From an uncultured Pelagibacteraceae bacterium (GTDB lineage Bacteria > Pseudomonadota > Alphaproteobacteria > Pelagibacterales > Pelagibacteraceae): 64,000 nt of DNA. Shown here piece by piece: positions 8,814 to 9,316 of this stretch (position 1 is the stretch's first letter; each line of letters begins with the position of its first letter). The notes under the pieces were generated by a model that saw only the letters and a list, made by a program, of their open reading frames with translations, made no database searches and was not told the origin of the DNA. A program made the position numbers and the translations under genes. Location of the stretch: assembly GCA_902581445.1 (NCBI GenBank), contig CACHOG010000006.1:1-64000 (forward strand), written 5' to 3'.

Positions 8814-8841
8814 AATTTAATGAGTTTGCAACATATGTCAA
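8814..8841 (-). promoter_or_regulatory. Putative katG promoter
   Basis: On the minus strand a consensus TTGACA (8841-8836) is followed after 16 bp by TAAATT (8819-8814), six bases before the GTG start. The -35 box lies just downstream of the palindrome at 8846-8860, so a protein bound there would contact or block RNA polymerase. If this is the real promoter, the katG mRNA is leaderless or nearly so. Confidence 0.5.
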
Positions 8842-8845
8842 TATA

Positions 8846-8860
8846 TTAGAATGATTCTAA
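8846..8860. promoter_or_regulatory. Perfect 7-1-7 palindrome, candidate Irr (ICE-type) box
   Basis: TTAGAATGATTCTAA is a perfect inverted repeat of two 7-mers around one central base, 39 bp before the katG start. The 7-1-7 layout is that of Fur/PerR-family operators, and the TTAGAA...TTCTAA half-sites resemble the Irr box (iron control element) of alphaproteobacteria as I recall it. The gene immediately upstream encodes an Irr-like protein. That Irr binds here is inference. Confidence 0.7.
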
Positions 8861-8902
8861 AGTGTTTTTTTGTCCTACTTTATTAAATGTGAATAATTAT
8901 TG

Positions 8903-9316
8903 TTATTTATTAGAAACTTTAACCAAAACCTCTATTGATTTAATTTTTTTTCCTGGGAGGCTTTTTCTCAATTTAATTTCTTCGACATCTTTATCATGAA
9001 AGTCAATAAGTTCACTAGTAGTCTCGTTATAAAAATGGTGGTGATTTGTTACATTTGTATCGTAATATGTTTTATCAGAATTTAATGAAATTTCCTTTAT
9101 GTAACCTTTGTTCTTAAAGGCATTTATTGTATTATAAATTGTAGCTTGAGATATTTTAATATCTAATTTCTTTTTTAAAATTTTTCGAAGATCATCTATA
9201 GTAAAATGAAAAGTCTTTTTTCTGTCAAAAAGAATTTCACACATTTTTAATCTTTGCTTAGTAGTTCTTAAGCCTGCAGATCTTAATTTTTCCTCAAAAT
9301 GAGTATTATTATTCAT
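8903..9316 (-). CDS. irr: Fur-family regulator, Irr-like
   Basis: 137-residue Fur-superfamily transcription factor. The N-terminal winged helix includes LRTTKQRLKMCEILF and SQATIYNTINAFKNKG (about residues 16-72), followed by a dimerisation domain with His92-94 in NHHHFYNE, the haem-binding HHH motif of Irr. Two context facts support Irr rather than PerR or Zur: it diverges from fabA-fabB-fabI by 77 bp, the arrangement found with irr in other alphaproteobacteria, and a palindromic operator lies between it and katG. Irr proteins control iron and haem genes and are inactivated by haem or peroxide. Confidence 0.88.
   Translation of the reverse strand: MNNNTHFEEKLRSAGLRTTKQRLKMCEILFDRKKTFHFTIDDLRKILKKKLDIKISQATIYNTINAFKNKGYIKEISLNSDKTYYDTNVTNHHHFYNETTSELIDFHDKDVEEIKLRKSLPGKKIKSIEVLVKVSNK

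Follow-up and report, generated by a model that had tools for sequence, protein, structure and literature searches.

The stretch of DNA analysed here, hereafter the window, comprises 64,000 nucleotides from an uncultured Pelagibacteraceae (SAR11) bacterium, whose genome assembly (1.14 Mb in 18 contigs, 85% complete) has uncultured Pelagibacteraceae single-cell genomes as its nearest named relatives. Two genes on its minus strand are at issue. The first, irr (8903-9316), encodes a 137-aa Fur-family regulator of the Irr type, and the second, katG (6594-8807), encodes a catalase-peroxidase of 737 aa with a GTG start, which matched its profiles over the full length (TIGR00198, 1153 bits; PRK15061, 1247.6 bits). 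On the irr side the pair is flanked by the constant neighbours fabA-fabB-fabI on the plus strand (9394-11896; the names fabB and fabI are based on their sequences and places), separated from irr by a divergent gap at 9317-9393. Behind katG lies a gene for a DUF2061 protein (6331-6579, minus strand), which together with SH3, dut and coaBC genes bounds the katG slot.

The protein encoded beside katG matched the Pfam FUR family (7.8e-22), and its two best NCBIfam models were IrrA (118.8 bits) and Irr (110.4 bits), with the next model at 72.7 bits. The IrrA score is under the curated cut-off of 150, which the syntenic protein of the sister family exceeds at 151.3 bits. Residues H37, D86, H92-H94 and D105 were conserved in 99-100% of 182 homologues; H92 and H94 of the HxH haem-binding motif, which lies within the HHH motif of the window protein, were present in all of them. 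No CxxC structural zinc site was found in the window protein, which carries a single cysteine in total. The assignment of this katG neighbour as a putative Irr-type protein of the Fur family was thus supported.

The first-pass annotation had suggested that the usual PerR or OxyR control of katG is replaced by Irr. Consistent with this, no OxyR or PerR gene was found in the genome at its 85% completeness: its Fur-family proteins are similar to Irr, to Fur (window 25346-25720) and to Zur, and the sole LysR protein found contains no cysteine and is therefore not OxyR. Relatives with katG and a completeness of 90-97% gave 0-1 LysR matches each. This negative result makes Irr the leading candidate for the principal regulator of katG.

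Between irr and katG we found the palindrome TTAGAATGATTCTAA exactly at 8846-8860, a perfect 7-1-7 inverted repeat as first described, which reads TTAGAATCATTCTAA on the minus strand and which we term O1. It had been said to abut a TTGACA hexamer; this consensus -35 element is indeed present (8836-8841, minus strand), but the 15-mer and the hexamer are 4 nt apart. The coding strand reads TTTAGAATCATTCTAAT-ATA-TTGACA. From the irr stop codon onward, the order is 42 nt, O1 (8860-8846), TATA, TTGACA (8841-8836), 16 nt, a probable -10 element TAAATT (8819-8814, minus strand), 6 nt and the GTG of katG (8807). Since the -10 ends only 6 nt before the GTG and no Shine-Dalgarno sequence was seen, the katG mRNA may be leaderless (window 8805-8819). 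Downstream of the -35, at 8817-8831 on the minus strand, by-eye comparison suggested the decayed position of a second box, O2: the window has TTGCAAACTCATTAA there and most relatives with katG have TTTAGAATCATTATAAA. The palindrome at the promoter is of the TTAGAA-N3-TTCTAA type of the Irr box (ICE) and is perfect in the window. The published anchor for this classification is the half-site TTCTAA, which is functional in S. meliloti (PMC7540006).

The strict motif TTAGAAYNRTTCTAA occurred once in the 1.14-Mb genome and its reversed-pattern control not at all, where a Markov model predicts 0.01 occurrences per window and 0.18 per genome, and the shuffled probability of a perfect box in such a gap was about 0.0003. 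The loose pattern TTAGAANNNTTCTAA showed no genome-wide enrichment at up to one mismatch (24 sites versus 38 for the control pattern), and its two further exact sites lie within large ORFs, carB-like and tilS-like as named by eye. The significance of the box therefore rests on its position and conservation. When a strong 17-mer was searched in 22 genomes, 14 of the 15 sites fell at the irr locus. The enrichment at iron and haem genes for which the first-pass annotation had proposed to test was not seen; almost all strong sites belonged to the irr locus.

We then compared 179 loci in which irr is followed by a scavenger gene, representing 167 distinct gaps. All 167 gaps carried an Irr-type box at O1, O2 or both (165 counted by script; L164 and L179 read from the displayed sequence), while shuffled gaps did so in 0.2% of cases at up to one mismatch and in 4.7% at up to two. 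O1 ends 4-5 nt upstream of the -35; O2 covers the -10, starting mostly 5-7 nt after the -35, and in gaps that have both, one starts some 30-32 bp from the other, a spacing close to three turns of the helix. Each box turns a nearly invariant half-site towards the -35, namely TTCTAA for O1 and TTAGAA for O2. The outer half-sites are loose in O1 and read TTATAA in O2, matching the requirement of the -10. In the clade of the window (L142-L154) a perfect O1 is kept and O2 is not. Every relative with an irr-katG arrangement has an Irr-type box upstream of katG; the absence that the first-pass annotation had named as refuting its reading was not seen. An A+T-rich repeat that arose by chance or has no function is hardly credible as an explanation of the palindrome; although the loose pattern is unenriched in the genome, position and sequence are kept in every relative, through changes of the downstream gene and even at katG genes unlinked to irr. 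Taken together, the comparisons point to the palindrome as most likely an Irr operator, the ICE box of Alphaproteobacteria, at the katG promoter, a reading that they support well.

A different member of the Fur family, such as the Fur-like protein encoded at 25346-25720, might be the main binder of the box in place of Irr. Such a paralogue is present in the genome and Fur-family boxes are alike; moreover, 14 sister-family gaps (L078, L081, L082 and others) contain the Fur-like palindrome TGATAATNRTTATCA immediately before O1, an arrangement that suggests joint control there. We nevertheless regard this explanation as very unlikely, as the box is of the Irr type and stands beside irr in every relative sampled, and about half of the relatives have one at the irr start too. 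This third Irr-type box, of the TTTAGAACTATTATAA type, is located directly upstream of the irr start (L101, L020, L024 and others) and suggests autoregulation. The irr-fabA gap of the window lacks an Irr box, and the occurrence of the third box in about half of the genomes made this gap unsuitable as a negative control. In one locus (L243, genome G070) irr is split into two frames, possibly by a sequencing error, and the box and rubrerythrin gene (rbr) that follow it are undamaged.

The gene behind the boxes is exchangeable. Among the 167 distinct gaps, the slot holds katG in 108, a gene for a 138-aa rubrerythrin in 55 and one for a redoxin-type peroxiredoxin in 4. Within the genus, rbr was found in 27 and katG in 45 of 91 genomes, with both in none of those listed (Fisher p 6e-11, uncorrected for phylogeny and incomplete genomes), and the four katG genomes of the sister family are likewise without rbr. 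A FabA-FabB tree implies at least 8 changes of the slot gene, some of them on branches with weak support, and one slot (G015) holds a different katG lineage. The flanks, fabA at one end and SH3-dut-coaBC at the opposite end, are unchanged across payloads; therefore, the slot gene was replaced in place.

Outside SAR11, rbr lies directly behind irr in most of the 30 irr loci of other alphaproteobacterial families that are best by similarity, and in 19 of these 30 the gap holds a box with at most one mismatch, generally 4 nt upstream of TTGAC. We read the combination of irr, Irr box and peroxide scavenger as an old alphaproteobacterial module with rubrerythrin as its original payload. Since irr-O1-rubrerythrin occurs across Alphaproteobacteria, katG is the replacement; in SAR11 the payload was apparently exchanged, in most cases for katG and in some for a peroxiredoxin, with the operator kept. 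Consequently, the link between haem sensing and a haem-dependent peroxidase, which the first-pass annotation had read from the locus, does not account for its origin: the ancestral payload was the non-haem rubrerythrin, and katG came later. No description of the exchangeable slot was found in the literature searched, a scope that did not extend to the key 2006 paper on the Irr regulon. The box and its regulator are known already; the exchangeable payload and the near single-locus regulon are new.

We also observed boxes away from this slot. In three sister-family genomes (L131, L132 and L133, corresponding to G130, G104 and G136), a katG with 62% identity is located at a great distance from irr, following a tRNA-like sequence, and TTTAGAATCATTATAA, an Irr-type box, is still present in its promoter region. 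Another genome of the sister family (G092; L116, L238) has an irr-katG pair of the window type beside an iron-transport-type permease, which looks like transfer as a unit; the native irr of this genome is lost, but its perfect box persists before a 67-aa gene. Loci L075, L077 and L238, from genomes without rbr behind irr, have the box before a 61-67-aa protein with no Pfam match. Further perfect boxes were located immediately before a peroxiredoxin gene that neighbours ABC-transporter genes in the sister family (L085, L087, L094, L234, L235, L237), just upstream of a Dps-like ORF, named by eye, in L071 (G146), and upstream of one shared transporter-type substrate-binding gene in three katG genomes (L134, L136, L140). 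These last may be chance occurrences or a small extra target.

We consider, with a probability of roughly three in four, that the palindrome is an Irr operator at the katG promoter, belonging to an old irr-box-scavenger module with a swapped payload, and that Irr acts as a repressor of katG under shortage of haem or iron. In this mechanism, Irr dimers would then occupy O1, adjacent to the -35, and also O2 across the -10 in promoters that have it; bound Irr would block RNA polymerase, and no iron-costly scavenger would be made. Once haem is available (at the HxH site) or Irr is oxidised, Irr would leave the DNA or be lost, and katG would then be transcribed. The genomes directly show the box with its constant geometry, kept when payloads were exchanged and found also at an unlinked katG; we infer binding by the window Irr, repression over activation, and haem or peroxide as the signal.

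The first-pass annotation held the position of the box to be compatible with activation as well as repression. For the window promoter, which has O1 only, upstream of the -35, this is correct, and O1 alone does not decide between the two. Activation is the less likely of them, because in many relatives a second box, O2, covers the -10, and promoters with such boxes are restrained by Irr in R. sphaeroides and S. meliloti. At S. meliloti mbfA, the box overlaps the promoter, its TTCTAA half-site is needed for Irr repression, and changing TTCTAA relieves that repression (PMC7540006). At R. sphaeroides ccpA, which Irr binds, transcription starts about 40 nt downstream of the box, a distance much like that of O1 here, and expression at low iron is slightly higher without Irr (PMC3413700). 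Together, these data favour repression by blocking of the -35 and -10. Irr of B. japonicum is reported to be degraded after haem-dependent oxidation (PMC4700492).

If Irr at O1 were instead an activator, it would help RNA polymerase from upstream of the -35, katG would be made at low haem or iron, and the enzyme would be part of coping with oxidative stress during iron starvation. The strictly kept spacing of O1 upstream of the -35 agrees with this, as does the finding that Irr can activate depending on the location of the ICE (PMC7762939). Furthermore, an array study of Ca. P. ubique recorded a 1.57-fold rise of rbr mRNA at low iron, in an rbr that may or may not be the irr-adjacent one (PMC2864753); the rise is opposite to simple low-iron repression and does not fit it. 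However, the same promoter has O2 over the -10, a blocking position, in many relatives, its TTGACA is already at consensus, and R. sphaeroides Irr lowers rather than raises mbfA and ccpA. We therefore judge activation unlikely and retain repression as the preferred reading.

SAR11 bacteria are among the most abundant in the surface ocean, whose waters commonly contain peroxide and are poor in iron. The katG gene is present in only part of SAR11, and the pattern described here suggests that the scavenger (haem KatG, non-haem rubrerythrin or thiol peroxiredoxin) is exchanged by lineage and the iron/haem control is kept. One testable locus would tie iron supply to peroxide removal, and it clearly illustrates how, in nature, an operator can stay fixed as the payloads behind it are exchanged. 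A further idea, which we offer tentatively and hold to be doubtful as a whole, is that the SAR11 Irr regulon has shrunk to about one locus and that Irr has taken the peroxide-switch role of OxyR or PerR; haem- or metal-catalysed oxidation at its His/Asp site would free katG, and the operator would have outlasted three non-homologous scavengers. Irr and PerR have the Asp/His site in common (PMC8638967).

The closest known systems are those of rhizobia (mbfA, bfr, blr7895) and R. sphaeroides (mbfA, ccpA), in which a regulator of the Irr type controls its targets through ICE motifs with the same half-sites. As in the window, the box there lies at or beside the core promoter, and the targets belong to iron handling and peroxide defence. 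In those bacteria, however, the genes under Irr control are dispersed and no pairing of irr with them is described, whereas here katG is the target and almost all strong sites belong to the irr locus. R. sphaeroides was rejected as a direct precedent for Irr control of a catalase, as its Irr does not bind the catalase gene katE. PerR and OxyR offer a parallel in that they, too, govern catalase-peroxidase genes, but the window Irr differs from them in having no CxxC zinc site, an HHH motif and an Irr-type box. Closest in layout is the irr-box-rubrerythrin arrangement of other Alphaproteobacteria, which has the same type of regulator, the same O1 box and the same spacing to TTGAC; its payload is a non-haem iron protein, whereas that of the window is the haem enzyme KatG.
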